A DNA stretch of 64,000 nucleotides from Ilex aquifolium. Its lineage: Eukaryota > Streptophyta > Magnoliopsida > Aquifoliales > Aquifoliaceae. The stretch is taken from positions 558,001 through 622,000 of the forward strand of contig OX637410.1 in assembly GCA_951799425.1 (NCBI GenBank). The letters are read 5' to 3'. The translations under genes and the position numbers were made by a program. Numbering within the stretch: position 1 is the stretch's first letter; the number at the start of each line of letters is the position of its first letter. This document shows positions 24,751-50,232 of the stretch, piece after piece. Below the pieces are notes generated by a model. It searched no databases and was not told the origin of the DNA. It was given only the letters and a program-made list of their open reading frames with translations.

Positions 24751-24786
<36 letters not shown>
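24751..24786. repeat. (TA)18 tract at the left edge of the viral array
   Basis: A pure TA run of 36 bases ends exactly where viral ORF2 sequence (ctcatatcacag) begins at 24787. A matching AT run borders the other end of the array (40723-40756). Confidence 0.95.
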
Positions 24787-24787
<1 letters not shown>

Positions 24788-25309
24788 TCATATCACAGAT
24801 ATTGAGATTTTAGTCAAAGCCTATCTTGGAGAAGGATGGACTTTTGTCCCTCGTGATCCAGAAAGAACTTTTGAATTTTACAAAGATATCCTATTTCTTA
24901 CTGAGTCAGTTCATATCAAAGCTATCCCAGATAAGAATGACCCCAGTAAAGCTGCTTTCCATTCTCTTTATATTAAAAAGATTTTGTCAATTAAAGATTG
25001 GGGATCTCACCCTTCTTCCTCTCGAGATCTCTCAGGTACTCATAAGAGGTTCAGTTATTATGACTACATTGAGTCATGGACCACTCTTATGCTCTATCAG
25101 GGTGAGTCATCTACTCATTCCTGGTTCATTCAGTTTGACAAAGATTTCAAAAGCCAGATTCCTTCCTGGTTTGTAAGATGGTGGCAAGTTCACGGCCCCA
25201 TTCTTGAAATCTTTCCTGTTGATCTTCAAGATCAATATTCCTACTTTTGCTCTGCTTTTACTCCTAGTAAACAGCAATCCCTTTTCCCAATTCCAGATTT
25301 GCTAACGTT
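24787..25309 (+). pseudogene. Displaced internal fragment of viral ORF2
   Basis: This 523-bp piece matches 30760-31282 (constant offset 5973) and encodes the Trp-rich middle of the ORF2 protein (ILVKAYLGEGWTFVPRD at its start, FPIPDLLT at its end). At 25307-25309 it switches to ORF1 sequence. Both parents have GTT at the join, giving a 3-nt microhomology. The ORF2 frame runs on past the join into meaningless sequence until 25484. Confidence 0.92.
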
Positions 25310-28300
25310 AATGCATTATGTAAAAGTCCTACGGATAGTACTTTGTTGTTACAAGCTAGTACCCCAAATTCAAATATCCAAACTCCTAAAAGAATTCTAT
25401 GGAAAGATGTTACTCTTCCAGAACATTGGACAGTTGAGAATGAAAATTTTGAAAAAGATTGTGAAGTTTCTACCACTAGGATAGATAACATTCACCAGTT
25501 GACTGATGGTTCAGTAAGAATTTCATTCGGTGATACTGGATCACGTAGATCTAGTACATCTTCCATTCCTCTAAATTTGTTTAATAAACCAATTCAGATC
25601 AATGAAGGCAGAAGATCTGAATCTTCCAGAATCTCCAAAAGAGATAAGGAAATTGCTGAAGAGATAGATCGAAGATTAAAAATGAAAGGAATTGATAATT
25701 CTTCACCCCAGATTAGCAGACCTCTTTACACTCCCTATAGTTCCAAATTCAAAGAAGATAAGAAGGAAGATGATTTTACTCCATCTCCTACTCTTAGTCC
25801 TTCTAGGAGTGAATTAGAAAGTCGTGTTGATGAACCTATTCATCATCAACTCAGAGTTATTAGGAAAGAATCTAATTTATGTTTTATGCCCAATATGTTT
25901 AGATTAATGAAAGAAATTGAATCTGAAGAAAATAAATCTAAAAAGGAAGATTTCTTTAAAAGATTTAATTCTCAACAGATCCAAGAAATTAAAATTCAAT
26001 GGGTAAAAACAATGCACAAATTAGAATCTGAAATTCAATTTTTTGATTATATTGACTCTTGTTGTAAAGATTTAAAAGTCATAACAAAACACAAGTGGAA
26101 TACTGTTGACTCAGGAACTGTGTCCTCTAGTCATCCTCCTACTGAAACTTTTAGCTTTACACATGCTGATACTCAACTTACTGCGTCTCCCTTTAAGGTT
26201 CCCTCTAGTGAATCAGACAAGAAGACTGCAGAGCAAAATAGTTTGGCAAAATTTGAAAAGAAAATTGTTGAACAAACCAATTTTACTAACCAAAGCCTAG
26301 TTACCATAGGAAGACAGTTAGATAAAATTGAAACAAAAGTTGATAGAATTGATTTATTATCTACAGGTAAAAAATTAGAGAAACCTCTAGTTACCCTACC
26401 TGAAGATAGATCTAAGCTAGGAATTGCTGATACACTCAGGATTCAAAAAATTGACCAATTACTTAGGAAGTTAGATGTCCAACCTGAAGCATCAGGAACC
26501 TCCCAAGTAACTGTTATCAATCAAACTTCAGATGCAGAAACCAGCACTGATGAAGATTTTTCTGATCCTGAAATCAAAGAATTAGAAAAAGCTTTTGAAA
26601 CCCAGCAAATTAATAAATTGGTTTTTTCAAATGCAAATCCAACTAGTACCACAAAAAACTGGTACCCCAGACCTACACCTCCTGATTTACAATTTGAAGA
26701 AAAAAATATTTCAAACCAATTTTCTGTTCAGTCAAATAAACTCTATGAATGGAACATAGATGGTTTAAGTGAACAAGAAATTTTAAATAAAATTCACCAC
26801 ATGTCTATGGTTATCAATAGTTATGTTACTAACCAAGATACTCCTGAGCCAGACTTAGTTGAGCTAATTGCCTCAGGATTCACTGGTGTTCTTAGAAGTT
26901 GGTGGGATAATTATCTTACCCAAGATTCTAAGGAAAATATTAAACATGCTGTTGTTTTAAATGAAGAAGGTATTCCAGTTTTTAATGAAAGAATTGGAAA
27001 AGCGAAACCAGATGGTTTAAATACCTTAATTTTCACTATAATTAAACATTTTGTTGGAACCCCTAGTAACATTGAAGCTAGGATCCATGATCAGCTTAGC
27101 AATCTTAAGTGTCCAACACTTAGTGATTTCAGATGGTACAAAGATGTTTTTGTTTCACGGGTAATGAACCGTGCAGATTGTAATAAATCTTTCTGGAAAG
27201 AAAAATTTGTTAATGGTTTACCTAGTTTATTTGCTCATAAGATTAGAGAAGCTCTTGCTAAAGATACAGGGATCATAGAGTATGACTCCCTAACTTATGG
27301 CCAATTAATTAGTACCATCCAAAAGGAAGGACTGAGGATGTGTATTGATTTAAAACTTAGTAAACAATTACAAAATGATAAGAATAAAGCTAAGTATGAA
27401 ATGGGAAATTTCTGTGAACAATATGGTCTCCCTCCAGTAGCACCATCATCTAGTCACAGAAAACACAAGTCTCATAGAAAACATAAGCATTATTCTAAAT
27501 TCAAATCTCACCATAATCATGATAAGAAAAGATTTTCTAAATCTGAATTTTACAAAAAATCTGAAAGAAAACACCATAGGTCTTCCAATCCTAAGAAAAA
27601 TTCTAGGAAGAAGATATCTGGTAAAGATAAAGCCCAAGAAGTTGTTAAATGCTTTAATTGCGGAAAACCAGGCCACATTAGTCCTGATTGCCCAATTAAA
27701 AAACAAGTTAAGTTGTTAAATTTAGCTGAAAATGAAACGGAAGAAATTCTTAGGATTTTTTGTTTACATAACCCAGCTCCTGAAATTGAAGAAATTCTAG
27801 ACTCCACAAGTAGTCCAGAAGATTCTTCAGATGATGATCACCAAGATTCAGATAATTCTACTGAACCTGACATCAAATTAGGATGTAAGGATAATTGTTG
27901 TAACAAAGTTAGGGTAATCACTAACCAAGCTGAAGAACAAATCTTAATAGATTTGATCAGTAAAATTGAGGATCCTGAACTTAAAGTTAAATATATAAAA
28001 AATCTCAAAGATTTGTTTGTTAAAAAAGACAACAAACAATTTTCAAATGAAAGACAATTAATTAGTATTAACAAAACAATGGAAAGATTTAGTAAAGAGA
28101 AAAAGAAAGAACTCACTTTACAAGATCTCCAGTGTGAAGTTAATAAATTAAAAGTTGAGATAAAAGATTTAAAAGCACAAGATAAAATCTTTGCTGAAAA
28201 TTTGAGTTTTTTATCCATGTCCAATACCAGTTCTCTGGAACCTAAAGTCTCAGATAATAAACAATCTGATTCTGAAATAGAGATTTCAAATCGAACACTT

Positions 28301-30385
28301 TCCCAGCGGATACCAATAACCTCCCCTGTTTTGATGGAAACTTCTGGTGTAACAAAGCTGCCATCGCAAGATGGGTGTTCACAAAGTGATAATCAAATTA
28401 ATTCTGTTAATAAAATTAATTTACAAAAATGGTATTCTCAAGTACGAATAATCATTAACAATGATTTTACACTTGATACAATTGCTCTTATTGATACAGG
28501 TGCAGATGTAAACTGTATTCAAGAAGGAATTGTTCCTACCAAGTTTTATGAAAAAACTCTTGAAAGATTAAGTTCTGCTAATGGCAGTAAAATGAATGTT
28601 GCTTACAAATTACCTAAAGCTCATATTTGTCAAGATAATGTTTGTTTTAAAACATCATTTATCTTAGTAAAAAATATGACAGATCAGGTTATCTTAGGAT
28701 TACCTTTCATCTATTTGTTATACCCTTTTACTACAAATATTGAAGGTTTATCTACAAAACCTTTAGGTCAATCTGTAACATTTAAGTTTATTCTTAAACC
28801 TGAGGTTAAAGAATTAAAACAACTTAAAACTGATTCTATATATCTCAGAATAATTAATCAGAAAAAGAATCAAGTGAAATTTCTTCAAGAAGAAATTAAT
28901 CACAAAAGAGTCTCTGATCAATTGACTGATCCAATTTTAGTTGAAAAAATTAGCCAATTTCAACAAAAGATTGAAGATGAAGTTTGCTCTAATCTTCCTA
29001 CAGCCTTTTGGCATAGGAAAAAGCATAGTGTTAAACTTCCCTACATTAAAGGATTCAATGAAAAAGATATTCCCACTAAATCAAGACCAATCCAAATGAA
29101 TCATGATTTAATGGAAACTTGCAAAAAAGAAATTTCTGAATTGCTAAAAAATGGAATTATTAGCAAGTCAAAATCTCCTTGGTCTTGTCCAGCTTTCTAT
29201 GTTATGAAAAATGCAGAACTAGAAAGAGGCACACCAAGACTTGTTATTAATTATAAACCTTTAAATGCTGTTTTGGAATGGATCAGGTATCCTATTCCTA
29301 ATAAGCAAGATCTAATTAAAAGATTAAAAAATTCTGTTATATTTTCAAAATTTGATTTGAAAAGTGGATATTGGCAAATACTGATATCTCCTGAAGATAG
29401 GTATAAAACTGCATTCACAACACCTTTTGGTCATTATGAATGGAATGTTGTACCTTTTGGTTTAAAAAATGCACCAAGTGAATTTCAAAATATTATCAAT
29501 GAAATTTTTAATCATTTAAGTCATTGTTCTATCACCTATATTGATGATATTCTCATCTTTAGCAGGTCCATTGAAGAACACTGGAAACACTTAAATGCAT
29601 TTTTAGAGACTGTTAGACATAGTGGTCTAGTCATCTCTGCCAGAAAAATCAAATTGTTTCAGACTTCGGTCAGATTCCTTGGATATGATATCCAAAATTC
29701 CACCATTGTTCCTATCAGTAGAGCTATTCAGTTTGCTGATAAATTCCCTGATCAGATTCTTGATAAAACACAACTTCAAAGATTTTTAGGTTCTCTGAAT
29801 TATGTTTCTGACTTTTATCAAAATCTCAGATCATCAGTTAAACCTCTGTATGACAGACTCAAAGGAAATCCTTCTCCTTGGACTTCTGAACATACATCCA
29901 TTGTCCAGCAAGTCAAAAAATTTATCAAAACTTTGCCTTGTCTCGGCATCCCTTCAGTTGACTCTTTTAAGATTATTCAAACTGATGCCTCCGACATTGG
30001 ATACGGTGGTATTCTCCTTCAGAAAGAATCTCCTAATTCTTCTGAACAAATTGTTCGTTTTTATTCCGGAATTTGGAATAAAGCCCAAGCCAATTACAGC
30101 ACTATTAAAAAAGAAATTTTAGCTATTGTCCTGTGTATCTCAAAATTCCAGGATGATATTTTAAATCAAAAATTTCTTGTGCGTGTTGATTGCAAATCAG
30201 CTAAATACGTACTTGAAAAAGATGTTCAAAATATTGCTAGTAAGCAAATTTTTGCTAGATGGCAAGCTATTTTGAGTATTTTTGATTTTGATATAGAATA
30301 TATTAAGGGCAGTAATAACTGCATACCTGATTTCCTAACTCGTGAATTTTTGCAGGAACCAAATGGCGGACAGCAAGTCCCATAA
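25307..30385 (+). pseudogene. Viral ORF1 polyprotein, plus-strand copy, 5'-truncated
   Basis: The open frame corresponds to residues 211-1902 of the minus-strand ORF1 and runs to TAA at 30383-30385 without a stop. It has lost the entire movement-protein core (residues about 30-205) and the initiating ATG; an in-frame TAA at 25268 lies upstream in the displaced ORF2 piece. The remaining domains are coat protein with CFNCGKPGHISPDC (27650), aspartic protease DTGAD (28493), RT with YIDD (29537) and RNase H with TDAS (29981). It differs from the other copy at four residues that I could find (E/K, P/S, N/D, G/R). It cannot be expressed as the normal polyprotein. Confidence 0.9.
30335..30355 (+). 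promoter_or_regulatory. Candidate 3' splice site just before viral ORF2 (left copy)
   Basis: CTAAC (30335-30339, a good plant branch-point match) is followed by tcgtgaatttttgcag ending at 30355, 7 nt before the ORF2 ATG at 30363. Splicing from the leader to this site would place the ORF2 start first on the mRNA. This is inferred from the signal only. The mirror site is 34782-34802. Confidence 0.45.
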
Positions 30386-31790
30386 ATCTGACACTTCCTC
30401 TAAAAACCCGGGGATGGGAGATCGTAAATTACCTTTATCTTTGGGTCCTCCAAACCCAAGACCAATTTCCCAAATTTTACCAGGCCCAACAAGTGCCTTA
30501 GCCCATTTACCTGGCCCCTCAAGTGCCATCCAAATTGCAAATAGATTCCAGCCTCTTGGTAGACCAGTTAGTCACCACCATAGGCCCACAATTGTTCCAG
30601 TTGCTACTTTTTCCCAAATGGCCCAGATGGCACCTCCAGATACTACCCAGCTTTCAAATCCATATTACAGATCCGGACCTCTTTACCCAAAAGGCCCAAA
30701 ATCAGATTTTGTTGATAAACCAAATTTCCACAATGTCTTTGCTATTGAGCCAGCTCATGCTCATATCACAGATATTGAGATTTTAGTCAAAGCCTATCTT
30801 GGAGAAGGATGGACTTTTGTCCCTCGTGATCCAGAAAGAACTTTTGAATTTTACAAAGATATCCTATTTCTTACTGAGTCAGTTCATATCAAAGCTATCC
30901 CAGATAAGAATGACCCCAGTAAAGCTGCTTTCCATTCTCTTTATATTAAAAAGATTTTGTCAATTAAAGATTGGGGATCTCACCCTTCTTCCTCTCGAGA
31001 TCTCTCAGGTACTCATAAGAGGTTCAGTTATTATGACTACATTGAGTCATGGACCACTCTTATGCTCTATCAGGGTGAGTCATCTACTCATTCCTGGTTC
31101 ATTCAGTTTGACAAAGATTTCAAAAGCCAGATTCCTTCCTGGTTTGTAAGATGGTGGCAAGTTCACGGCCCCATTCTTGAAATCTTTCCTGTTGATCTTC
31201 AAGATCAATATTCCTACTTTTGCTCTGCTTTTACTCCTAGTAAACAGCAATCCCTTTTCCCAATTCCAGATTTGCTAACGTTTGTTTGCAGGTACAGGAT
31301 TCCTTGGATTTGCAGATGGCAATGGCAGTTTATTGAACACCATATTGCCAGACAGTTCTCTGTCAAGTGGTGGCCCAGATTTTCTTATGAAAATATTATT
31401 GCTACAATTCAGAGTGATTTTCCAGTCAAGGTTCCGACCCCACAAGTGGTCCCAACAGCCTTGTCTTCTACCACTCCAGTTCAGATGGCCCTACCTATTC
31501 TGAAGGTATCTACAGATGCACCTAAAGAATCTACAGGACCATCCAGTATTTCCAAAGTTAGGCCAAGAAAGTCCTCATCAAAGGGCTCTGGCAAGCAGTC
31601 CCAACCTTCAGCTGCTGAGCTGCTCAAGATGGCTCAAGATTTGATCCAGCAGGCAGCAGTTGCCAGCCAAAGTTCATCATCTCCAAGTTCCTCAGCCGGA
31701 TCCGTCACTCCATCCCCATTACAGGATGCCCAGGACCCGTATGAAGGATATGATGACTTAGATTCAGATGTTGACATCACCATCCCGTGA
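30363..31790 (+). CDS. Viral ORF2 protein, unknown function (left copy)
   Basis: This is a 475-codon frame from ATG at 30363 to TGA at 31788-31790. The ATG lies inside the end of ORF1 (23-nt overlap, different frame); an earlier in-frame ATG at 30342 would add seven residues but precedes the candidate splice site. The N-terminal third is Pro/Ser-rich (SLGPPNPRPISQILPGP). The middle is rich in Trp and aromatic residues (SWFVRWWQVHGP, YRIPWICRWQWQFIEHH). The C-terminal third is Ser/Gln/Pro-rich (SAAELLKMAQDLIQQAAVA) and ends in an acidic tail (YDDLDSDVDITIP). No enzymatic motif is visible. A second ORF after the polyprotein is the trait that separates florendoviruses from petuviruses; its role is unknown to me. 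Confidence 0.85.
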   Translation: MADSKSHKSDTSSKNPGMGDRKLPLSLGPPNPRPISQILPGPTSALAHLPGPSSAIQIANRFQPLGRPVSHHHRPTIVPVATFSQMAQMAPPDTTQLSNPYYRSGPLYPKGPKSDFVDKPNFHNVFAIEPAHAHITDIEILVKAYLGEGWTFVPRDPERTFEFYKDILFLTESVHIKAIPDKNDPSKAAFHSLYIKKILSIKDWGSHPSSSRDLSGTHKRFSYYDYIESWTTLMLYQGESSTHSWFIQFDKDFKSQIPSWFVRWWQVHGPILEIFPVDLQDQYSYFCSAFTPSKQQSLFPIPDLLTFVCRYRIPWICRWQWQFIEHHIARQFSVKWWPRFSYENIIATIQSDFPVKVPTPQVVPTALSSTTPVQMALPILKVSTDAPKESTGPSSISKVRPRKSSSKGSGKQSQPSAAELLKMAQDLIQQAAVASQSSSSPSSSAGSVTPSPLQDAQDPYEGYDDLDSDVDITIP

Positions 31791-32562
31791 TGTAGTTTTG
31801 ATTGTTTTTACCTGTGATGGCTTCACTCACTACTCTCTTCTCACACAAGGGAGAAAAGCTGTCTGTCACATGTAAGGATAAGATTTTCACAAGATTTACC
31901 CAGATTTACCCGGTGCTTTCCCCAAGTAAAGTTACCGACAGATTCCCTTTCAACCTGCTTTTCCCAAAGTAAAAGCAGATTACCCTTACTTTCCACCGAA
32001 AGTCAGATTCCCTGACACCTTTGGACCTACCTGTCCTCTCTTGTCAGCCTTTTGTCAAACTTACCCTGAGTAATTACCTTTTACCCAGAGAAGATTTCAA
32101 AATGAAATGATTGCTTCAAAATCCTTACGCCTATATAAGGATTTCAGATTTTCAGTTGTAAGTAAGTCTTGTTAGACCATTACAAGCCTTGAAATTTTAC
32201 TCTCCTACCTTCACTGAAATTTGTAAGCCTCAAATGAAGAGCTTTAATTTGACCTACAAAGCAGATTTCAGTTATGCAATCTTATTTCCACTGGCCCTCT
32301 AAGTGCTAGTGTTGTAAGTGTTGCTTATTTGTAATTTTCATTCATATATTTGAAAATTTGTTTATATCTACATCTTGTAATTCTTATGGCTATTTCAGTT
32401 TACAAAATTCCTTGTGAATTTGCAATTCCTTCAAATGATTATGCTGTTCTAGCTGTCACAGTAAGAACAGAAGATACTCCCCCAGTTTCTTATGTCCTAT
32501 GGGTTTATTCTTTCTTTGTCAATTTATTTGTTTAAATTTCGATTGTTCAAATCTCCTTCCTT
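31791..32562 (+). other. Viral non-coding region with promoter and leader (left copy)
   Basis: The 772 nt between ORF2 and the palindrome centre holds the viral promoter (TATA at 32132) and about 400 nt of presumed leader. The leader has donor-like gtaagt at 32314 and gtaaga at 32461, and a 49-codon frame from ATG 32386 (MAISVYKIPCEFAIPSNDYA). No TGGTATCAGAG primer site is seen. Several ttacc/cccag-rich repeats lie before the TATA box. Confidence 0.7.
32132..32139 (+). promoter_or_regulatory. TATA box of the left viral copy
   Basis: TATATAAG lies about 340 bp after the ORF2 stop. Transcription would begin near 32165 and run right, through the palindrome centre into the antisense strand of the other copy. 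Confidence 0.65.
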
Positions 32563-32574
32563 CCGCTTTTATTT
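32563..32574. repeat. 12-bp palindrome spacer
   Basis: ccgcttttattt is the only unpaired sequence between the arms: 32562 pairs with 32575 and 32563 does not pair with 32574. It marks where two viral molecules were joined tail to tail. Confidence 0.95.
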
Positions 32575-32997
32575 AAGGAAGGAGATTTGAACAATCGAAA
32601 TTTAAACAAATAAATTGACAAAGAAAGAATAAACCCATAGGACATAAGAAACTGGGGGAGTATCTTCTGTTCTTACTGTGACAGCTAGAACAGCATAATC
32701 ATTTGAAGGAATTGCAAATTCACAAGGAATTTTGTAAACTGAAATAGCCATAAGAATTACAAGATGTAGATATAAACAAATTTTCAAATATATGAATGAA
32801 AATTACAAATAAGCAACACTTACAACACTAGCACTTAGAGGGCCAGTGGAAATAAGATTGCATAACTGAAATCTGCTTTGTAGGTCAAATTAAAGCTCTT
32901 CATTTGAGGCTTACAAATTTCAGTGAAGGTAGGAGAGTAAAATTTCAAGGCTTGTAATGGTCTAACAAGACTTACTTACAACTGAAAATCTGAAATC

Positions 32998-33005
32998 CTT
33001 ATATA
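32998..33005 (-). promoter_or_regulatory. TATA box of the right viral copy
   Basis: This is the mirror image of 32132-32139, facing left. The two promoters converge on the spacer, about 860 bp apart. Confidence 0.65.
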
Positions 33006-33346
33006 GGCGTAAGGATTTTGAAGCAATCATTTCATTTTGAAATCTTCTCTGGGTAAAAGGTAATTACTCAGGGTAAGTTTGACAAAAGGCTGACAAGAGA
33101 GGACAGGTAGGTCCAAAGGTGTCAGGGAATCTGACTTTCGGTGGAAAGTAAGGGTAATCTGCTTTTACTTTGGGAAAAGCAGGTTGAAAGGGAATCTGTC
33201 GGTAACTTTACTTGGGGAAAGCACCGGGTAAATCTGGGTAAATCTTGTGAAAATCTTATCCTTACATGTGACAGACAGCTTTTCTCCCTTGTGTGAGAAG
33301 AGAGTAGTGAGTGAAGCCATCACAGGTAAAAACAATCAAAACTACA

Positions 33347-34774
33347 TCACGGGATGGTGATGTCAACATCTGAATCTAAGTCATCATATCCTTCATACGG
33401 GTCCTGGGCATCCTGTAATGGGGATGGAGTGACGGATCCGGCTGAGGAACTTGGAGATGATGAACTTTGGCTGGCAACTGCTGCCTGCTGGATCAAATCT
33501 TGAGCCATCTTGAGCAGCTCAGCAGCTGAAGGTTGGGACTGCTTGCCAGAGCCCTTTGATGAGGACTTTCTTGGCCTAACTTTGGAAATACTGGATGGTC
33601 CTGTAGATTCTTTAGGTGCATCTGTAGATACCTTCAGAATAGGTAGGGCCATCTGAACTGGAGTGGTAGAAGACAAGGCTGTTGGGACCACTTGTGGGGT
33701 CGGAACCTTGACTGGAAAATCACTCTGAATTGTAGCAATAATATTTTCATAAGAAAATCTGGGCCACCACTTGACAGAGAACTGTCTGGCAATATGGTGT
33801 TCAATAAACTGCCATTGCCATCTGCAAATCCAAGGAATCCTGTACCTGCAAACAAACGTTAGCAAATCTGGAATTGGGAAAAGGGATTGCTGTTTACTAG
33901 GAGTAAAAGCAGAGCAAAAGTAGGAATATTGATCTTGAAGATCAACAGGAAAGATTTCAAGAATGGGGCCGTGAACTTGCCACCATCTTACAAACCAGGA
34001 AGGAATCTGGCTTTTGAAATCTTTGTCAAACTGAATGAACCAGGAATGAGTAGATGACTCACCTTGATAGAGCATAAGAGTGGTCCATGACTCAATGTAG
34101 TCATAATAACTGAACCTCTTATGAGTACCTGAGAGATCTCGAGAGGAAGAAGGGTGAGATCCCCAATCTTTAATTGACAAAATCTTTTTAATATAAAGAG
34201 AATGGAAAGCAGCTTTACTGGGGTCATTCTTATCTGGGATAGCTTTGATATGAACTGACTCAGTAAGAAATAGGATATCTTTGTAAAATTCAAAAGTTCT
34301 TTCTGGATCACGAGGGACAAAAGTCCATCCTTCTCCAAGATAGGCTTTGACTAAAATCTCAATATCTGTGATATGAGCATGAGCTGGCTCAATAGCAAAG
34401 ACATTGTGGAAATTTGGTTTATCAACAAAATCTGATTTTGGGCCTTTTGGGTAAAGAGGTCCGGATCTGTAATATGGATTTGAAAGCTGGGTAGTATCTG
34501 GAGGTGCCATCTGGGCCATTTGGGAAAAAGTAGCAACTGGAACAATTGTGGGCCTATGGTGGTGACTAACTGGTCTACCAAGAGGCTGGAATCTATTTGC
34601 AATTTGGATGGCACTTGAGGGGCCAAGTAAATGGGCTAAGGCACTTGTTGGGCCTGGTAAAATTTGGGAAATTGGTCTTGGGTTTGGAGGACCCAAAGAT
34701 AAAGGTAATTTACGATCTCCCTTCCCCGGGTTTTTAGAGGAAGTGCCAGATTTATGGGACTTGCTGTCCGCCAT
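33347..34774 (-). CDS. Viral ORF2 protein, unknown function (right copy)
   Basis: This 475-codon frame, with ATG at 34774-34772 and TGA at 33347, is intact. It differs from the left copy at three residues near the N-terminus (D/G, M/K and P/L) and at one silent site in the middle domain (cag/caa). The domain make-up is as in the left copy: Pro/Ser-rich start, Trp-rich centre, Gln/Ser-rich C-terminal region and acidic tail. It overlaps the end of ORF1 by 23 nt in another frame and has the same candidate splice acceptor (34782-34802) directly upstream. Confidence 0.85.
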   Translation of the reverse strand: MADSKSHKSGTSSKNPGKGDRKLPLSLGPPNPRPISQILPGPTSALAHLLGPSSAIQIANRFQPLGRPVSHHHRPTIVPVATFSQMAQMAPPDTTQLSNPYYRSGPLYPKGPKSDFVDKPNFHNVFAIEPAHAHITDIEILVKAYLGEGWTFVPRDPERTFEFYKDILFLTESVHIKAIPDKNDPSKAAFHSLYIKKILSIKDWGSHPSSSRDLSGTHKRFSYYDYIESWTTLMLYQGESSTHSWFIQFDKDFKSQIPSWFVRWWQVHGPILEIFPVDLQDQYSYFCSAFTPSKQQSLFPIPDLLTFVCRYRIPWICRWQWQFIEHHIARQFSVKWWPRFSYENIIATIQSDFPVKVPTPQVVPTALSSTTPVQMALPILKVSTDAPKESTGPSSISKVRPRKSSSKGSGKQSQPSAAELLKMAQDLIQQAAVASQSSSSPSSSAGSVTPSPLQDAQDPYEGYDDLDSDVDITIP

Positions 34775-37700
34775 TTGGTTCCTGCAAAAATTCACGAGTT
34801 AGGAAATCAGGTATGCAGTTATTACTGCCCTTAATATATTCTATATCAAAATCAAAAATACTCAAAATAGCTTGCCATCTAGCAAAAATTTGCTTACTAG
34901 CAATATTTTGAACATCTTTTTCAAGTACGTATTTAGCTGATTTGCAATCAACACGCACAAGAAATTTTTGATTTAAAATATCATCCTGGAATTTTGAGAT
35001 ACACAGGACAATAGCTAAAATTTCTTTTTTAATAGTGCTGTAATTGGCTTGGGCTTTATTCCAAATTCCGGAATAAAAACGAACAATTTGTTCAGAAGAA
35101 TTAGGAGATTCTTTCTGAAGGAGAATACCACCGTATCCAATGTCGGAGGCATCAGTTTGAATAATCTTAAAAGAGTCAACTGAAGGGATGCCGAGACAAG
35201 GCAAAGTTTTGATAAATTTTTTGACTTGCTGGACAATGGATGTATGTTCAGAAGTCCAAGGAGAAGGATTTCTTTTGAGTCTGTCATACAGAGGTTTAAC
35301 TGATGATCTGAGATTTTGATAAAAGTCAGAAACATAATTCAGAGAACCTAAAAATCTTTGAAGTTGTGTTTTATCAAGAATCTGATCAGGGAATTTATCA
35401 GCAAACTGAATAGCTCTACTGATAGGAACAATGGTGGAATTTTGGATATCATATCCAAGGAATCTGACCGAAGTCTGAAACAATTTGATTTTTCTGGCAG
35501 AGATGACTAGACCACTATGTCTAACAGTCTCTAAAAATGCATTTAAGTGTTTCCAGTGTTCTTCAATGGACCTGCTAAAGATGAGAATATCATCAATATA
35601 GGTGATAGAACAATGACTTAAATGATTAAAAATTTCATTGATAATATTTTGAAATTCACTTGGTGCATTTTTTAAACCAAAAGGTACAACATTCCATTCA
35701 TAATGACCAAAAGGTGTTGTGAATGCAGTTTTATACCTATCTTCAGGAGATATCAGTATTTGCCAATATCCACTTTTCAAATCAAATTTTGAAAATATAA
35801 CAGAATTTTTTAATCTTTTAATTAGATCTTGCTTATTAGGAATAGGATACCTGATCCATTCCAAAACAGCATTTAAAGGTTTATAATTAATAACAAGTCT
35901 TGGTGTGCCTCTTTCTAGTTCTGCATTTTTCATAACATAGAAAGCTGGACAAGACCAAGGAGATTTTGACTTGCTAATAATTCCATTTTTTAGCAATTCA
36001 GAAATTTCTTTTTTGCAAGTTTCCATTAAATCATGATTCATTTGGATTGGTCTTGATTTAGTGGGAATATCTTTTTCATTGAATCCTTTAATGTAGGGAA
36101 GTTTAACACTATGCTTTTTCCTATGCCAAAAGGCTGTAGGAAGATTAGAGCAAACTTCATCTTCAATCTTTTGTTGAAATTGGCTAATTTTTTCAACTAA
36201 AATTGGATCAGTCAATTGATCAGAGACTCTTTTGTGATTAATTTCTTCTTGAAGAAATTTCACTTGATTCTTTTTCTGATTAATTATTCTGAGATATATA
36301 GAATCAGTTTTAAGTTGTTTTAATTCTTTAACCTCAGGTTTAAGAATAAACTTAAATGTTACAGATTGACCTAAAGGTTTTGTAGATAAACCTTCAATAT
36401 TTGTAGTAAAAGGGTATAACAAATAGATGAAAGGTAATCCTAAGATAACCTGATCTGTCATATCTTTTACTAAGATAAATGATGTTTTAAAACAAACATT
36501 ATCTTGACAAATATGAGCTTTAGGTAATTTGTAAGCAACATTCATTTTACTGCCATTAGCAGAACTTAATCTTTCAAGAGTTTTTTCATAAAACTTGGTA
36601 GGAACAATTCCTTCTTGAATACAGTTTACATCTGCACCTGTATCAATAAGAGCAATTGTATCAAGTGTAAAATCATTGTTAATGATTATTCGTACTTGAG
36701 AATACCATTTTTGTAAATTAATTTTATTAACAGAATTAATTTGATTATCACTTTGTGAACACCCATCTTGCGATGGCAGCTTTGTTACACCAGAAGTTTC
36801 CATCAAAACAGGGGAGGTTATTGGTATCCGCTGGGAAAGTGTTCGATTTGAAATCTCTATTTCAGAATCAGATTGTTTATTATCTGAGACTTTAGATTCC
36901 AGAGAACTGGTATTGGACATGGATAAAAAACTCAAATTTTCAGCAAAGATTTTATCTTGTGCTTTTAAATCTTTTATCTCAACTTTTAATTTATTAACTT
37001 CACACTGGAGATCTTGTAAAGTGAGTTCTTTCTTTTTCTTTTTACTAAATCTTTCCATTGTTTTGTTAATACTAATTAATTGTCTTTCATTTGAAAATTG
37101 TTTGTTGTCTTTTTTAACAAACAAATCTTTGAGATTTTTTATATATTTAACTTTAAGTTCAGGATCCTCAATTTTACTGATCAAATCTATTAAGATTTGT
37201 TCTTCAGCTTGGTTAGTGATTACCCTAACTTTGTTACAACAATTATCCTTACATCCTAATTTGATGTCAGGTTCAGTAGAATTATCTGAATCTTGGTGAT
37301 CATCATCTGAAGAATCTTCTGGACTACTTGTGGAGTCTAGAATTTCTTCAATTTCAGGAGCTGGGTTATGTAAACAAAAAATCCTAAGAATTTCTTCCGT
37401 TTCATTTTCAGCTAAATTTAACAACTTAACTTGTTTTTTAATTGGGCAATCAGGACTAATGTGGCCTGGTTTTCCGCAATTAAAGCATTTAACAACTTCT
37501 TGGGCTTTATCTTTACCAGATATCTTCTTCCTAGAATTTTTCTTAGGATTGGAAGACCTATGGTGTTTTCTTTCAGATTTTTTGTAAAATTCAGATTTAG
37601 AAAATCTTTTCTTATCATGATTATGGTGAGATTTGAATTTAGAATAATGCTTATGTTTTCTATGAGACTTGTGTTTTCTGTGACTAGATGATGGTGCTAC

Positions 37701-40460
37701 TGGAGGGAGACCATATTGTTCACAGAAATTTCCCATTTCATACTTAGCTTTATTCTTATCATTTTGTAATTGTTTACTAAGTTTTAAATCAATACACATC
37801 CTCAGTCCTTCCTTTTGGATGGTACTAATTAATTGGCCATAAGTTAGGGAGTCATACTCTATGATCCCTGTATCTTTAGCAAGAGCTTCTCTAATCTTAT
37901 GAGCAAATAAACTAGGTAAACCATTAACAAATTTTTCTTTCCAGAAAGATTTATTACAATCTGCACGGTTCATTACCCGTGAAACAAAAACATCTTTGTA
38001 CCATCTGAAATCACTAAGTGTTGGACACTTAAGATTGCTAAGCTGATCATGGATCCTAGCTTCAATGTTACTAGGGGTTCCAACAAAATGTTTAATTATA
38101 GTGAAAATTAAGGTATTTAAACCATCTGGTTTCGCTTTTCCAATTCTTTCATTAAAAACTGGAATACCTTCTTCATTTAAAACAACAGCATGTTTAATAT
38201 TTTCCTTAGAATCTTGGGTAAGATAATTATCCCACCAACTTCTAAGAACACCAGTGAATCCTGAGGCAATTAGCTCAACTAAGTCTGGCTCAGGAGTATC
38301 TTGGTTAGTAACATAACTATTGATAACCATAGACATGTGGTGAATTTTATTTAAAATTTCTTGTTCACTTAAACCATCTATGTTCCATTCATAGAGTTTA
38401 TTTGACTGAACAGAAAATTGGTTTGAAATATTTTTTTCTTCAAATTGTAAATCAGGAGGTGTAGGTCTGGGGTACCAGTTTTTTGTGGTACTAGTTGGAT
38501 TTGCATTTGAAAAAACCAATTTATTAATTTGCTGGGTTTCAAAAGCTTTTTCTAATTCTTTGATTTCAGGATCAGAAAAATCTTCATCAGTGCTGGTTTC
38601 TGCATCTGAAGTTTGATTGATAACAGTTACTTGGGAGGTTCCTGATGCTTCAGGTTGGACATCTAACTTCCTAAGTAATTGGTCAATTTTTTGAATCCTG
38701 AGTGTATCAGCAATTCCTAGCTTAGATCTATCTTCAGGTAGGGTAACTAGAGGTTTCTCTAATTTTTTACCTGTAGATAATAAATCAATTCTATCAACTT
38801 TTGTTTCAATTTTATCTAACTGTCTTCCTATGGTAACTAGGCTTTGGTTAGTAAAATTGGTTTGTTCAACAATTTTCTTTTCAAATTTTGCCAAACTATT
38901 TTGCTCTGCAGTCTTCTTGTCTGATTCACTAGAGGGAACCTTAAAGGGAGACGCAGTAAGTTGAGTATCAGCATGTGTAAAGCTAAAAGTTTCAGTAGGA
39001 GGATGACTAGAGGACACAGTTCCTGAGTCAACAGTATTCCACTTGTGTTTTGTTATGACTTTTAAATCTTTACAACAAGAGTCAATATAATCAAAAAATT
39101 GAATTTCAGATTCTAATTTGTGCATTGTTTTTACCCATTGAATTTTAATTTCTTGGATCTGTTGAGAATTAAATCTTTTAAAGAAATCTTCCTTTTTAGA
39201 TTTATTTTCTTCAGATTCAATTTCTTTCATTAATCTAAACATATTGGGCATAAAACATAAATTAGATTCTTTCCTAATAACTCTGAGTTGATGATGAATA
39301 GGTTCATCAACACGACTTTCTAATTCACTCCTAGAAGGACTAAGAGTAGGAGATGGAGTAAAATCATCTTCCTTCTTATCTTCTTTGAATTTGGAACTAT
39401 AGGGAGTGTAAAGAGGTCTGCTAATCTGGGGTGAAGAATTATCAATTCCTTTCATTTTTAATCTTCGATCTATCTCTTCAGCAATTTCCTTATCTCTTTT
39501 GGAGATTCTGGAAGATTCAGATCTTCTGCCTTCATTGATCTGAATTGGTTTATTAAACAAATTTAGAGGAATGGAAGATGTACTAGATCTACGTGATCCA
39601 GTATCACCGAATGAAATTCTTACTGAACCATCAGTCAACTGGTGAATGTTATCTATCCTAGTGGTAGAAACTTCACAATCTTTTTCAAAATTTTCATTCT
39701 CAACTGTCCAATGTTCTGGAAGAGTAACATCTTTCCATAGAATTCTTTTAGGAGTTTGGATATTTGAATTTGGGGTACTAGCTTGTAACAACAAAGTACT
39801 ATCCGTAGGACTTTTACATAATGCATTAACATTTAAATTTGTTTTCATGCATTTGTAATAGATTCTATAAATAAGGACAATAGAATCAGTATTTGCTTCA
39901 AGTCTAGTAATATCACCAAATAATTTGATTCCTAGAGTGAGTGCTTTGTAAGTGTTCTTACAAGTTAGACTCAAGGTGAAATCTGGGAAACAATTAAAAT
40001 ATACAGGTCCTTGGTGAAGGCCTGATTCCATAATTCCTAAGAGACTAGGTTCATAGTCGATAAACCTACCATCTCTTAAAGTTAGTAAAACAACAGCATT
40101 TTTTCCTTTAGTTAATAAAGGTTTAATTGCAATTTGGACAAGACCTAAATGGATAAATTTAAATCCTTTGGATCTGTGATTTTCCAGTACCTTCTTATCA
40201 AGAAGTCTGACAATTTCTTCATCATTTTTTAAAGGATGAACTTGTTCAACAGTTTTGACTTGCAATTCTTCATTGAATGCTGTTGGCATCCAACTTGTTT
40301 GATAAATTTCCTTTTTAGGAACTTTAGGAATATTCCAACCTAACCAATTAGATTGTTTAATTTCACATTCAAAATCTTCTTCATTTACTATATTAGGTAT
40401 AGTACTAGATGAAGATCTAGATGAGCTAATTGTGGAATTAGATCTAAACATTCTATTCAT
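34752..40460 (-). CDS. Viral ORF1 polyprotein (MP-CP-PR-RT-RH), full length, uninterrupted
   Basis: The frame has 1902 codons with no stop, starting ATG at 40460 (MNRMFRSNST). Residues about 30-205 form a 30K-type movement protein for cell-to-cell transport (LGLVQIAIKPL at 105, GPVYFNCFPDFTLSL at 151). Residues about 500-1005 resemble the caulimovirid coat protein (GVLRSWWDNYL near 735), ending in a basic stretch and zinc knuckle CFNCGKPGHISPDC (992-1005). A coiled-coil-like Lys/Glu segment follows at about 1140-1175. The aspartic protease DTGAD is at 1273, RT with YIDD at 1621-1624, and RNase H with TDAS at 1769-1772. No integrase is present, as expected for a pararetrovirus. The intact frame suggests a recent insertion. 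Confidence 0.9.
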   Translation of the reverse strand: MNRMFRSNSTISSSRSSSSTIPNIVNEEDFECEIKQSNWLGWNIPKVPKKEIYQTSWMPTAFNEELQVKTVEQVHPLKNDEEIVRLLDKKVLENHRSKGFKFIHLGLVQIAIKPLLTKGKNAVVLLTLRDGRFIDYEPSLLGIMESGLHQGPVYFNCFPDFTLSLTCKNTYKALTLGIKLFGDITRLEANTDSIVLIYRIYYKCMKTNLNVNALCKSPTDSTLLLQASTPNSNIQTPKRILWKDVTLPEHWTVENENFEKDCEVSTTRIDNIHQLTDGSVRISFGDTGSRRSSTSSIPLNLFNKPIQINEGRRSESSRISKRDKEIAEEIDRRLKMKGIDNSSPQISRPLYTPYSSKFKEDKKEDDFTPSPTLSPSRSELESRVDEPIHHQLRVIRKESNLCFMPNMFRLMKEIESEENKSKKEDFFKRFNSQQIQEIKIQWVKTMHKLESEIQFFDYIDSCCKDLKVITKHKWNTVDSGTVSSSHPPTETFSFTHADTQLTASPFKVPSSESDKKTAEQNSLAKFEKKIVEQTNFTNQSLVTIGRQLDKIETKVDRIDLLSTGKKLEKPLVTLPEDRSKLGIADTLRIQKIDQLLRKLDVQPEASGTSQVTVINQTSDAETSTDEDFSDPEIKELEKAFETQQINKLVFSNANPTSTTKNWYPRPTPPDLQFEEKNISNQFSVQSNKLYEWNIDGLSEQEILNKIHHMSMVINSYVTNQDTPEPDLVELIASGFTGVLRSWWDNYLTQDSKENIKHAVVLNEEGIPVFNERIGKAKPDGLNTLIFTIIKHFVGTPSNIEARIHDQLSNLKCPTLSDFRWYKDVFVSRVMNRADCNKSFWKEKFVNGLPSLFAHKIREALAKDTGIIEYDSLTYGQLISTIQKEGLRMCIDLKLSKQLQNDKNKAKYEMGNFCEQYGLPPVAPSSSHRKHKSHRKHKHYSKFKSHHNHDKKRFSKSEFYKKSERKHHRSSNPKKNSRKKISGKDKAQEVVKCFNCGKPGHISPDCPIKKQVKLLNLAENETEEILRIFCLHNPAPEIEEILDSTSSPEDSSDDDHQDSDNSTEPDIKLGCKDNCCNKVRVITNQAEEQILIDLISKIEDPELKVKYIKNLKDLFVKKDNKQFSNERQLISINKTMERFSKKKKKELTLQDLQCEVNKLKVEIKDLKAQDKIFAENLSFLSMSNTSSLESKVSDNKQSDSEIEISNRTLSQRIPITSPVLMETSGVTKLPSQDGCSQSDNQINSVNKINLQKWYSQVRIIINNDFTLDTIALIDTGADVNCIQEGIVPTKFYEKTLERLSSANGSKMNVAYKLPKAHICQDNVCFKTSFILVKDMTDQVILGLPFIYLLYPFTTNIEGLSTKPLGQSVTFKFILKPEVKELKQLKTDSIYLRIINQKKNQVKFLQEEINHKRVSDQLTDPILVEKISQFQQKIEDEVCSNLPTAFWHRKKHSVKLPYIKGFNEKDIPTKSRPIQMNHDLMETCKKEISELLKNGIISKSKSPWSCPAFYVMKNAELERGTPRLVINYKPLNAVLEWIRYPIPNKQDLIKRLKNSVIFSKFDLKSGYWQILISPEDRYKTAFTTPFGHYEWNVVPFGLKNAPSEFQNIINEIFNHLSHCSITYIDDILIFSRSIEEHWKHLNAFLETVRHSGLVISARKIKLFQTSVRFLGYDIQNSTIVPISRAIQFADKFPDQILDKTQLQRFLGSLNYVSDFYQNLRSSVKPLYDRLKRNPSPWTSEHTSIVQQVKKFIKTLPCLGIPSVDSFKIIQTDASDIGYGGILLQKESPNSSEQIVRFYSGIWNKAQANYSTIKKEILAIVLCISKFQDDILNQKFLVRVDCKSAKYVLEKDVQNIASKQIFARWQAILSIFDFDIEYIKGSNNCIPDFLTREFLQEPNGGQQVP

Positions 40461-40719
40461 AGTTAAATCAAAATTTCTTCAATTTTATAAATCAAAAATA
40501 AGTTTTAACCACATGATGCATACCCCCTAACATTCATGAACCCTCAGTTTCTCGCCTAAAATTCCCTAGACTGCCACACCTGGACTTACAAACGGGAAAA
40601 CAAAGAGGCTTACACACTCTTGGATTTAAGACAAAGGCTAGGTGATCAGGTTAAGAAAAAACTTATAACTGATTTAATTGAATTGAAAGAAATAGAGATT
40701 TAAAATGAATAAGAGTGTT

Positions 40720-40720
<1 letters not shown>
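40461..40720 (-). other. Viral 5' leader segment of the right copy
   Basis: The 260 nt between the ORF1 ATG and the AT tract are present only in the right copy. Several short ATG frames are possible, but no primer-binding site for initiator tRNA-Met is visible. The viral sequence ends at about 40720 (gttcaa before the AT run). Confidence 0.65.

Positions 40721-40722
<2 letters not shown>

Positions 40723-40756
<34 letters not shown>
40723..40756. repeat. (AT)17 tract at the right edge of the viral array
   Basis: This pure AT run directly borders viral sequence at 40720 and host sequence (tagttaatggag) from 40757. It is the partner of the (TA)18 tract at 24751-24786. Confidence 0.95.
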
Positions 40757-40834: not shown

Positions 40835-40904
40835 GATTCCTAAAGTTGCCTTGCGTGGCTTGGAGCATAAAATTGAGTTGGGCATGGACTTTGTGTGCAG
40901 ATAA
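40835..40904 (+). CDS. Candidate terminal exon, unknown protein
   Basis: After the acceptor tttgcatatatgcag (ending 40834) a frame reads IPKVALRGLEHKIELGMDFV then CR and TAA at 40902-40904, starting with one leftover base. The splice signal is good and the peptide looks protein-like, but I do not recognise it. The viral array lies directly upstream, so if real, the array sits in the preceding intron. Confidence 0.3.
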
Positions 40905-41329
40905 TGTTGATCTAATTGAGGTTGTTTGTGCCTCACAAAGATCAAGGCCCGCAAATGTTAATACTACGCATAACAGAAGTACTCAGTAGCAATGTTTCAT
41001 GTCTAGTTTTCGGTTCAGCACCTATGTGGCAGCTGCTATAACAGAGTTTTCTTGGAGCCATGCATTTCCTCTTGTGGTCAACAGTGAAGAGTGTGGGTGA
41101 ATAGGACCAATGTGTGCAGATAATGTTGATTTTATTGAGGTTGTTTGTGCCTCACAAAGATCAAGGCCCGCAAATGTTAATACTACGCATAACAGAAGTA
41201 CTCAGTAGCAATGTTTCATGTCTAGTTTTCAGTTCAGCACCTATGTGGCAGCTGCTATAACAGAGTTTTCTTGGAGCCATGCATTTCCTCTTGTGGTCAA
41301 CAGTGAAGAGTGTGGGTGAATAGGACCAA
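40892..41329. repeat. 219-bp tandem duplication
   Basis: Copy 1 spans 40892-41110 and copy 2 spans 41111-41329, both starting tgtgtgcagataatgttgat and ending gggtgaataggaccaa. Only about three differences were seen (gatct/gattt and ttcgg/ttcag among them), so the duplication is young. Copy 1 begins inside the last codons of the candidate exon at 40835-40904. Confidence 0.95.
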
Positions 41330-44059: not shown

Positions 44060-45238
44060 TGACACCGAAACGGCTGAGGGGGTGGGCGAAACAACAACCT
44101 AACAAAACCGGCCTTTGATCAACAAGCCTTCATGGAGGCTATGGGCATTATGGCTTCCACCTTTATGCAAGCCAGTGCCAACATGGGCAAAGGATGCTCA
44201 AACAACCTCAGGATGTTCAAGGCACACAGACCACCAACCTTTATGGAGGTGCGGATCCAATGGTAGCCGACCATTGGTTCCAACAAGTAGACAAGATCTT
44301 GGAGGCTATTGAGGTCACATCCGACGCCACTAAGATAAGGCTAGTTTTGTTCGAGCTTGAGGGAGAGGCTCATCTGTGGTGGGATTGGGCAAAAGCCTCA
44401 AAGAACATAGAGGCAATGACTTGGGGAGAGTTCCGCGAGCTCTTCATGAACAAATACTTCCCATTGGCTGTTTGGCAAGTTAAAGAATGGGAATACTTCC
44501 CATCAGCTGTTTGACGGTGATGGAATACCTGGCCATGTTCATCGAGCTAGCCCATTTCACCGACAACTACGTGGCCACGGACTTGGCCAAAGTAAGGATG
44601 TTTGAGGATGGATTGAAGTTGTCCATCCGAGGAAAGATTGTGGGCCACCGCCTATAAGACATAGACTCAATGGTTGAGACGACCATGGCCATTGAGAAGG
44701 AAGTGGAAGGCGTAAAGAGCATCCGGGAGGCTGGTGCTAAGGATAAGAAAAAGGAGAATCAACCTTCTTCTTCTAGTTTGGGGAATAAGCAAAAGACATC
44801 TACCCCACAAGGGTTCCAAGGGCAAGGCCGAGGCTACCAAGGCCATGGTCAATCTTCCCAAGGGTGGGAGAAATTTCATGGCCACCTATTAGGCCAGCCA
44901 GAGGACTTGCTTCATATGTCACTAGCCGGGCCACTTGAAGCGGGATTGTCCTCAGAGACAAGGATCCTAGAGTTTCGGGGACATCTTAGTTCGAGTCATC
45001 AATGAGACATCTGCAGACTTTCTTCACTCCTCCCTATCCCACCATGGGCCAGGGAAGTTATTTCCAGTTCCAGGGTGCTACACAGGCCCCTACCACTTCA
45101 CGAGCTGGGACTTTGCAATCAGGCTAGATGGTCCAGGGTTTGGGCCGAGGCTGAGGTTAGGGCTTTCAGGCAGGGACTTCAAGGACCCAGGGGCGAGTCT
45201 ACACCATCATACCACAGACTGAGCCGGCAGATCAATTA
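44060..45238 (+). pseudogene. Gypsy-1 gag remnant
   Basis: MTPKRLRGWAKQQ at 44060 is followed by an early stop. The retrotransposon gag domain is clear from 44230, with GADPMVADHWFQQVDKILEA, HLWWDWAKASKN and MTWGEFRELFMNKYFP, then a duplicated 'ccatt/catcgctgtttg' patch and stop at 44514. A second part follows (MEYLAMFIELAHFTD, then VRMFEDGLKLSIRGKIVGH). The zinc knuckle could not be found. Confidence 0.8.
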
Positions 45239-47209
45239 ATGATTCAGAGTACATTCTTACTCTCTCGCTTATGGGCAATGATATTGTTTGATTCGGGTGC
45301 ATCTCATGCATTTATTTCTACATCATGTGTGAAAGATTTGGTCTTAGGGGTTGAGACTTTAGAAGAGCCAATGCATGTGAGTTCTCCCCTAGGAACTAGG
45401 GTTTGCATTGATCAGATATGTCGGGGCTGTGAGCTAGAGATGTTAGAGATTATACTCACTGCGGACCTTAGGGTCATGGACATGTTGGAGTTTGACGTCA
45501 TCCTCATGATGGATTGGTTGGCAGCATATTGAGTAGTCATCGACTGTAATCGGAAGAGGGTCACCGCTTATACACTAGAGGGTATTTGCTTCAAATTTCA
45601 GGGAGAAAAGTAAGATGCTTTATCCCAAACTATGTATGACTCTAGTAGGCTCGAGTAGTTAATGGGTTGGCTTGCGAGCCTTACACTTAAGGATAACGCG
45701 AGATAGGATTTGGGTCTACCTCGTGCAGTGTGTGAGTATGCAGACGTTTTCCCAGATGAATTGCCAAGATTACCTCCACAACAGGATGTAGACTTCACCA
45801 TTGAGTTACAACCTGGTGCATCCCCTATTTTTATGCCGAGTTGCAAGAACTTAAGGTCCGGTTGCAAGAATTATTGGACAAGAGTTTCATTAGGCTGAGT
45901 GCCTCACTTTGGGGTGCTCCGGTGTTATTTTCCAAGAAGAAGGACAAGACCATTAGATTTTGTATAGACTACCGCCAATTGAATCAAGTTACTATCTAGA
46001 ATAGGTACCCACTACCAAGGATTGATGATCTCTTTGATTAACTAAGAGGGGCACGGGGCTACTCCAAGATAGATCAGCACACGGGATACCATCAGTTGAG
46101 GATTATGGAGGCGAACATCCCTAAGACGACATTCAGGATGTGATACGGGCATTTTGAGTTTACTGTTCTTCCATTTGGATTGATGAATGCCCTGGAGGCA
46201 TTCATGGACCTTATCCACAGGGTGTTCTAACCCTAATTTGATCAGTTTGTCATGGCCTTTGTTGATGACATCCTAATCTACTCCAAATCCAAGGAAGAGC
46301 ATGAGGGTCACTTGAGGATTGGTCTTTAGACCTTGAGAGACCACCAATTGTACGTCAAGTTCACCAAGTGTAAATTTTGGCTGACGAAGGTAAAATTTAT
46401 GGGACACGTGGTGTTCACTATGGGTGTGTTAGTAGACCCGGAGAAGGTTAAGGCGATTATGAGTTGGGAGAGGCCTAAGTCAGTACTCGAGATACATAGT
46501 TTCATAGGATTGGCAGGATATTATCGGAGGTTCATTGAGGACTTCTCATGGCTAGCTATACCTATAACTAGACTAACCAGGAAAGAGGTCAACTTTCAGT
46601 GGGATGACTCGTGTGAGAGGGCATTCCAAGAGTTGAAGAGGAGGCTTACTTCAGCTCCTATTCTTATAGTTCCTAAGAGAGGGCATAGGTACACAGTCTA
46701 TTGTGATGCTTCGAAGAATGGACTTGGATGTGGTTTGATGTAGTCCGGGAAGGTGGTAGCTTACGGTTTCACTACAATTGAAGAGCCACAAGCAGAACTA
46801 CCCCACGCACGACATGGAGTTGGCGGCCGTCATATTTGCCTTGAAGGCATATTGCCGCTATTTGTATGGAGAATAGTTTGAGGTATTTTCGGATCATAAA
46901 AATCTGAAGTACATCTTCATACAACAGGACCTCAATATGAGGCAGTGCAGGTGGATGGAGTACCTGTAGGATTATGACCTTACTTTGCATTACCATCCTA
47001 GTAAGGCAAATGTGGTGGCTAGTGCACTTAGTCGGTAGTCATGGGAAGTCTTAGCTAGTATAGCTTCCCGGTAGTGGTGGATGCTCGAGGCTATGGGATA
47101 GTTCGGGCCACACTACAAGGGTTAGGCTTAGGGAACTTTGGGGAGGCTTGTGGCTACGTCTTCCATATTGAGTAGAGTGATCGAGTCCTAGGGACAGAAC
47201 ACAGAGATA
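45239..47209 (+). pseudogene. Gypsy-1 pol remnant (protease, RT, RNase H)
   Basis: The protease reads ILFDSGASHAFISTSCVKD (45284) and DVILMMDWLAAY. RT starts with [20 protein letters not shown] (45750), [20 protein letters not shown] (45918), LPFGLMNALEAFM and the active site [10 protein letters not shown] (46258). RNase H begins at YTVYCDASKNGLGCGLM (46690), and LHYHPSKANVVASALSR marks the end of the domain (46990). Many in-frame stops (TAG/TGA, often one transition from a sense codon) show decay, consistent with methylated-cytosine deamination. The integrase is gone; Athila sequence begins near 47210. Confidence 0.8.
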
Positions 47210-49370: not shown

Positions 49371-49404
49371 TAAAGGTTGGAAAGATTTGGGAAAAATCTG
49401 AGCT

Positions 49405-49680
49405 CAAGTACTAGTATCTAAGTGATTAAGTACCGGTACCACATTGTCAAATGACCCAAGTACTAGTACCTAAAACTATATGCACTAGTACCTGGATTCC
49501 AGTGGGCTCAGGTACCGGTACCCCGATGAACAGTGGGCTCAGGTACTGGTACCAAGACATATAGGTACTAGTACCTAAAAAATAGTGGGCTCAGATACTG
49601 GTACTAGTGTAAAGGTACCTGACAAACAGAAGGCCCATGTACCGGTATCACACATCAGAAGTACCGATACCTCGTCCCAA
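49405..49680. repeat. GGTACCGGTACC-type array in the Gypsy-1 3' LTR tail
   Basis: About ten copies of (a)ggtac(c/t)(g/a)gtacc are spaced 15-40 bp apart, several within 'gtgggctcaggtac'. The equivalent position of the solo LTR (60475-60652) carries the related GTACCGGTAC array. Confidence 0.85.
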
Positions 49681-50213
49681 AATTTGAAATTTTAAATGTA
49701 ACACTTAGGGGAATTCACTCTTTGAACGACCTCTACGGACGATATAAATGGATAATAAAAAGCTCAAATTTACTGGGGCTTGGACCTTGGAATGGTCATG
49801 TGATGGATATGTATACAGGTTATGTGTTGGGTAGTGCTTCGGTACAAGAGAGACTCTACCGAAAGTTTGTTTTGGTTATGACCCTGATGAATGGGGTGTA
49901 ACAACGTGGTATCGGGTTATGCGGTACTCACGGGTATACTTTCGCGGGTTGATGGGTAATCAACGGATTGAGAAAGGACCCCAGGATTTTGGGGCATCAC
50001 ACTTAGTCTTGTCCTTCCTTGAGGAGACGATCTTGAAAACTTTTTTTGAGTTAAGACACGACACGTAAGCCTCCATGCGCTTGGGGAGTAACTTTTGCAT
50101 CACCACAACTTTAAGGCCACACCACCTTTGGCATTCACCTACATTCCATCATAACCCCTCAAACAAAACCCCACCACCATCGAGGTGAAACAAGAAAATA
50201 AATCAATGATTTT

Positions 50214-50232
50214 TGGCACCGTTGCCTGGGAA
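50214..50232 (+). promoter_or_regulatory. Athila-1 primer-binding site
   Basis: TGGCACCGTTGCCTGGGAA resembles the TGGCGCCGTTGCCGGGGA primer site typical of Athila/Tat elements (tRNA-Asp, from memory), with a few changes, and lies directly after the 5' LTR end. Confidence 0.75.

Follow-up and report, generated by a model that had tools for sequence, protein, structure and literature searches.

How did two almost identical pararetroviral genomes come to lie in opposite orientation at one site of the holly genome (Ilex aquifolium), and could RNA from this site take part in silencing? Both questions are raised by a viral insert on C20. The window, i.e. the whole stretch of 64,000 nucleotides that was analysed, corresponds to C20:558001-622000.

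Structure of the insert

Counted outward from the spacer in the assembly sequence, the left arm (25307-32562, + strand) and the inverted right arm (32575-39830, - strand) are identical at 7248 of 7256 positions, with eight substitutions and no indels. Beyond these 7,256 positions the likeness of the arms ends abruptly. A second search returned the same arms with three chance positions added at the ends (25304-32562 and 32575-39833). Between the arms lies a spacer of 12 bp (32563-32574, + strand). A 26-nt pattern across the centre occurred once in the 800-Mb assembly when up to two mismatches were allowed. The large frames of both copies run toward the spacer (left on the + strand, right on the - strand); hence, the copies are arranged tail to tail. 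The near-perfect palindrome and the orientation of its copies were thus found as the initial annotation had described them. The same applies to its placement of the insert within TA edges, but the right end had been set at 40720 and was now located at 40722. The whole insert (24787-40722) is a composite of about 15.9 kb, situated wholly inside one (TA)n microsatellite tract. In the repeat scan (TA)18 was detected at the left host edge (24751-24786) and (AT)17 at the right one (40723-40756); the right insert edge is uncertain by one or two bases, as viral and microsatellite letters coincide there.

The left copy is itself composite. The leader and some 210 codons of ORF1 are missing; their place at the outer end is taken by another ORF2 piece (24787-25309, +), equal to 30760-31282 by sequence comparison, which is fused to ORF1. 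At this join three nucleotides (25307-25309) are common to both parts. According to the ORF list, the 5'-truncated left ORF1 frame covers 1680 aa (25343-30385, +) and left ORF2 482 aa (30342-31790, +). The right copy is nearly full length and extends about 890 bp beyond the left copy. The part missing from the left copy (39831-40722, -) comprises the leader and the start of ORF1. Right ORF1 (34752-40460, -) has 1902 aa and 219 kDa, right ORF2 (33347-34795, -) 482 aa and 54 kDa.

Outside the insert, two tandem 219-bp units, 98.6% alike, were observed at 40892-41329, about 135 bp from the right (AT)n edge on its non-viral side. Fragments of gypsy-type LTR retrotransposons (gag, RVP_2, RNase H, RT and a weak integrase zinc domain) are located at 44119-54943, a retroviral SH3-like piece at 9894-10343. 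Scans of the window for Rfam families (gathering thresholds) and for tRNAs gave no match.

Viral identity

Four separate pieces of ORF1 were compared with Pfam, and MP, DUF7588, DUF7746, caulimovirus coat, RVP, RVT_1 and RNase H were detected. A CCHC finger was found with an E value of 0.006, weaker than the Pfam cut-off. MP, CP, zinc finger, AP, RT and RNase H1 thus occur in the order that defines ORF1 of florendoviruses. Counted from the first ATG, this ORF1 has 218.8 kDa, compared with a printed florendovirus range of 205-216 kDa. Florendovirus ORF2 is a protein of 45-58 kDa in another frame, lacking similarity to known domains; the ORF2 found here (54.1 kDa) has a frame offset of 1 and no match in Pfam. 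Its 13 relatives among 8000 scored candidates are all without informative name. A unit genome of 7.2-8.5 kb with a tRNA-Met primer binding site (PBS) is also part of the florendovirus description. Viral units in an array on C10 are spaced by 8202 bp, and the PBS is present in other copies. In either copy of the window no PBS was detected within two mismatches; the matches found at 20759 and 22268 are not part of the insert. Among the 120 RT relatives listed, only a few were named; most of these names were those of plants, and one was an archaeal MAG label. With the RT piece as query, no relatives in viral contigs were confirmed.

The florendovirus-like pararetrovirus that had been proposed for this DNA agrees with the ORF layout, the ORF2 size, the 8202-bp spacing and the capture in (TA)n, all of which fit the report of Geering et al. 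(2014, PMC4241990). The locus can be read, with good support, as a pair of endogenous caulimovirids of florendovirus type by genes and layout, and as putative members of the florendovirus clade. The endogenous florendoviruses of that report are alike in the ORF1 polyprotein with ORF2 in another frame, in the tRNA-Met PBS and unit genome size, in (TA)n capture and in the formation of arrays. In the accessible part of the paper, inverted, palindromic, head-to-head or tail-to-tail copies are not mentioned.

The centre of the palindrome

The viral end (32300-32562) was used as a probe against the assembly. At least 41 matches were obtained, two of them the window arms, with 40 of 526 candidates scored; the true number of copies of this end is probably higher than listed. 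In other copies the arm continues directly into the spacer letters, which are native to the virus and form the last 12 bases of the left copy. Where copies continue past these letters, the next base opens TGGTATCAGAGC, which we take to be the tRNA-Met PBS. The last base of the left copy is the base directly before this PBS, i.e. the start of minus-strand DNA. At the centre the right copy is 12 bp shorter than the left copy, and its outer end is located 47-48 nt after the PBS start of other copies. A tRNA-Met PBS-like motif is printed in the available text of PMC1899175.

The ends of other copies accumulate at the same position. Within -11 to +17 of the minus-strand start, 17 of the 32 first-examined other copies end, whereas uniformly distributed ends between -12 and +760 would give about 1.2 (binomial P ~2e-16; one of the 32 ends at -35, beyond the range used). 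Among the matches listed, the count is 19 of 39 other copies, which are partly dependent, five coming from one C10 array; some of the 19 ends run into other viral fragments, not host DNA (e.g. L017, L018 and L029), and BLAST may misplace an end by a few bases if flank letters happen to match. The remaining 20 comprise ten copies reaching the reference end (+760), seven ending at +45 to +536, one at -35 and two at -74. In nine of the 39 listed copies (TA)n directly adjoins this viral end. Among the copies listed, the minus-strand start is a hotspot for copy ends.

Two copies on C14 (L021 and L022, at 2409 and 2424 kb) are 14.5 kb apart, have a common downstream breakpoint at +261 and are 99.6% alike over 1139 nt. 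Thus, some copies probably arose by later duplication.

Further viral pairs in the genome

Inverted partners were sought only where the census showed opposite neighbours. In addition to the window locus, at least four long inverted pairs whose centres differ were found, so that the total of five is a minimum. The main stretches of the four other pairs are 99.5-99.9% alike. A tail-to-tail pair at C20:12.20-12.217 Mb is 99.5% alike over 6186 nt and has a spacer of about 273 nt; a further 568 nt agree at 97.4%, the difference being mostly one gap. Head-to-head pairs are located at C10:25.67 Mb (99.6% over 5042 nt, 98.3% over 2533 nt round the centre and 95.5% over 468 nt at the viral ends) and at C5:12.6 Mb (99.5% over 6236 nt), and a partial one at C9:23.77 Mb (99.93% over 2987 nt).

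Direct pairs at five loci are 99.15-100% alike, two of them compared over 304-353 nt only. At C20:12.2 Mb a neighbouring direct copy agrees with the inverted copy at just 92.5% over 2267 nt. Since direct neighbours are near-identical as well, and not the inverted ones alone, the near-identity of partners points to joint capture rather than to palindrome formation as such.

The spacer of the C20:12.2 Mb pair (C20:12209560-12209830, L014/L041), about 270 nt without match to the viral reference, begins right after viral TGGTATCAGAGCC and ends near a second TGGTATCAGAGCC. It may, as a guess, be a retrotransposon leader joined at the common tRNA-Met primer site. On C10 (20638348-20671630), five of the matches listed represent an array of viral units in direct orientation, in most cases with a spacing of 8202 bp. 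This array (L009) ends in (TA)n, two positions before the base that precedes the PBS. For small-RNA comparison, this array is the direct-repeat counterpart of the palindrome.

Origin and age of the palindrome

As starting molecules we propose linear viral DNAs ending at the minus-strand start, at the base before the tRNA-Met PBS. Tail-to-tail joining of two such molecules, of which one kept its full end and the other had lost 12 bp, would have given a dimer that was captured as filler DNA during the repair of a break in the (TA)n tract. For this scheme we infer end joining as enzyme pathway, a single integration event and neutrality. In our opinion, the locus probably originated as an inverted dimer of linear reverse-transcription products that entered the genome at a (TA)n break after end-to-end joining. 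The copies of each locus are alike in either orientation over the main stretch, which speaks for the joining of molecules from one infection. Against a joint origin stand the less similar stretches of the C10 inverted pair (98.3% and 95.5%) and of C20:12.2 Mb (97.4% and 92.5%). The central join has zero common bases; such a join is allowed by end joining and is proof of no pathway.

Capture of viral DNA at AT/TA repeats was described by Geering et al. (2014, PMC4241990) and Kunii et al. (2004, PMC526188). In the latter study capture was inferred as well. According to its available sections, more than half of the host-joined ends were intergenic, the others were situated at discontinuities, and AT repeats were present at 93% of the ends. 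The elements of Kunii et al. differ from the holly copies in their relation to rice tungro bacilliform virus, and a long palindrome is not described in these sections. A review (PMC10377300) gives, in the part available, two main ideas for integration, namely break repair and the machinery of retrotransposons; arrays are traced there to concatemers or recombination.

At each of the eight sites at which the arms differ, the base of the other copies is retained in one arm, and only the opposite arm deviates. Changes that arose after integration would give this pattern. Three to five of six copies were readable per site, L043 at none, and for site 28241 two of the three comparison copies were poorly aligned (77-83%). 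Three changes are located in the left arm and five in the right, and seven of the eight are G:C to A:T. The age was calculated as 8/(2 x 7256)/rate, assuming that all differences arose after capture. With rates which we assumed and which are not host-specific, about 79,000 years were obtained at 7e-9 per site and year, 220,000 at 2.5e-9, 37,000 at 1.5e-8 and 551,000 at 1e-9. The palindrome looks young. All eight differences fall into a zone 1489-4465 nt away from the centre (P ~0.01), the inner 1489 and the outer 2790 nt being identical. This clustering is not explained by simple mutation after integration, and gene conversion is a possible cause.

An older palindrome with arms kept alike by gene conversion would account for the inner and outer stretches free of differences. 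Single-arm changes at all eight sites, mostly G:C to A:T, and the listed frames, which are still open in both arms, speak for a young locus instead, but both are compatible with conversion too; we consider this older age clearly unlikely. Fold-back copying, by which the viral 3' end would have turned back and been extended into the second arm with the 12-nt spacer as loop, agrees with the 99.9% identity of the arms and the small native spacer. The C10 head-to-head pair, with a 38-nt loop and in our reading about three common bases at the turn, fits as well. The left copy ends, however, in TTTATTT, which cannot pair with the bases where the right arm starts, and a later deletion must be added because the right copy is about 890 bp longer than the left. 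Direct neighbours are equally alike, so near-identity needs no fold-back, and for this reason fold-back was dropped as the first choice for a necessary explanation. It is rated as unlikely, though less so than the conversion of an older palindrome.

Artificial palindromes in long reads are known after whole-genome amplification (PMC6218980, in the part available), and an artefact of assembly or library has to be considered. The mirror stops, however, abruptly at viral and not at host sequence, and the outer ends are unlike (ORF2 piece and leader). The eight substitutions, with one arm carrying the base of the other copies each time, and the presence of four other long inverted pairs, whose centres differ, also argue against it. 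The artefact is disfavoured as very improbable, and the inverted structure looks real.

The joining of reverse-transcription products thus stays the preferred origin. Capture of this virus might regularly yield molecules joined in inverted orientation at the reverse-transcription start, so that waves of infection would leave self-made hairpin loci; we hold this extension to be distinctly doubtful. If true, the at least five inverted pairs would be a standing heritable RNA-silencing record derived from the replication ends of the virus, not from later rearrangement.

Predicted hairpin RNA

By motif scan TATATAA was found at 32132-32138 (+) as TATA box of the left and at 32999-33005 (-) as that of the right viral promoter, each 430 nt from the arm end and facing the spacer, as had been annotated initially. 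For the 808-nt stretch 32165-32972, folding predicted a perfect stem of 398 bp with a 12-nt loop and -695 kcal/mol; shuffled sequences reached a mean of -163 kcal/mol, and none of 20 was as good. RNA of the centre, if transcribed, must fold into such a hairpin and could feed Dicer-like enzymes. AATAAA occurs on the - strand at 32573 (within the spacer), 32528 and 32509, and on the + strand at 32609 and 32628, i.e. 34 and 53 nt beyond the spacer. With these signals at or near the spacer, many read-through transcripts may stop before the 400-bp stem is formed. Provided that the signals are functional, the stem of most transcripts would be short. Since plants are not strict in their use of poly(A) signals, the AATAAA motifs weaken the case for the hairpin without removing it. 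Of the read-through hairpin suggested in the initial annotation, the perfect stem upon transcription of the centre was retained, whereas the AATAAA signals speak against its exact form. A 7-kb stem, which had been expected from outside transcription, is without known driver, since 20 flank frames (no gene prediction) compared with Pfam yielded only six retroelement pieces, one CCCH zinc finger and 13 without match.

A working antiviral locus would produce, from a two-promoter read-through hairpin, 21-24-nt siRNAs that silence both the virus and other viral copies, and would have been kept for this reason. TATA boxes facing the spacer and the predicted 398-bp perfect stem are in favour, as are tomato loci with inverted pararetroviruses, whose 22-nt siRNAs trigger transcript decay (PMC10377300, available part). 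The AATAAA signals in and shortly beyond the spacer argue against it; moreover, several long inverted pairs exist here, and joining bias alone suffices for them. We consider such a locus highly doubtful. The chances that some hairpin-derived siRNA arises from the locus appear evenly balanced; a real antiviral benefit is improbable.

Comparison with known systems

The holly locus is a clean, young-looking natural viral hairpin locus with an unusually clear junction. Its centre coincides exactly with the minus-strand start, which ties the form of the insert to the way in which viral DNA is made. Together with the four further inverted pairs and the clustering of ends, a capture preference for reverse-transcription ends becomes testable in one genome. 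The same holds for the question if inverted captures, more than direct ones, become sources of siRNA.

The idea of hairpin silencing itself is already in print for tomato (PMC10377300, PMC12904150). In the accessible parts of these papers, which cite Valli et al. (2023), 22-nt siRNAs and target decay are reported for inverted pararetrovirus loci; short RNAs and CHH methylation of tomato EPRVs were described in 2007 (PMC1899175, available text). The inverted repeat of viral sequence that marks the tomato TSA-type siRNA loci is present in holly, and in both plants inverted viral copies are able to give hairpin RNA. In tomato, siRNAs of 22 nt and silencing were reported, whereas the hairpin RNA of the holly locus is predicted from sequence. 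In cotton, a pararetroviral pair on chromosome A04 (PMC10458927, in the part available) likewise forms a locus of about 15 kb with two full-size copies on opposite strands. The two copies are 98.98% alike and were judged there as a single integration, but they are arranged head to head and belong to a caulimovirid with more ORFs, and the accessible text does not relate their junction to the PBS. A description of inverted pararetrovirus pairs joined at the minus-strand start was not found in the accessible open-licence literature. New in the holly locus are the spacer, which is native viral sequence, and the end of the left copy at the base before the tRNA-Met PBS.
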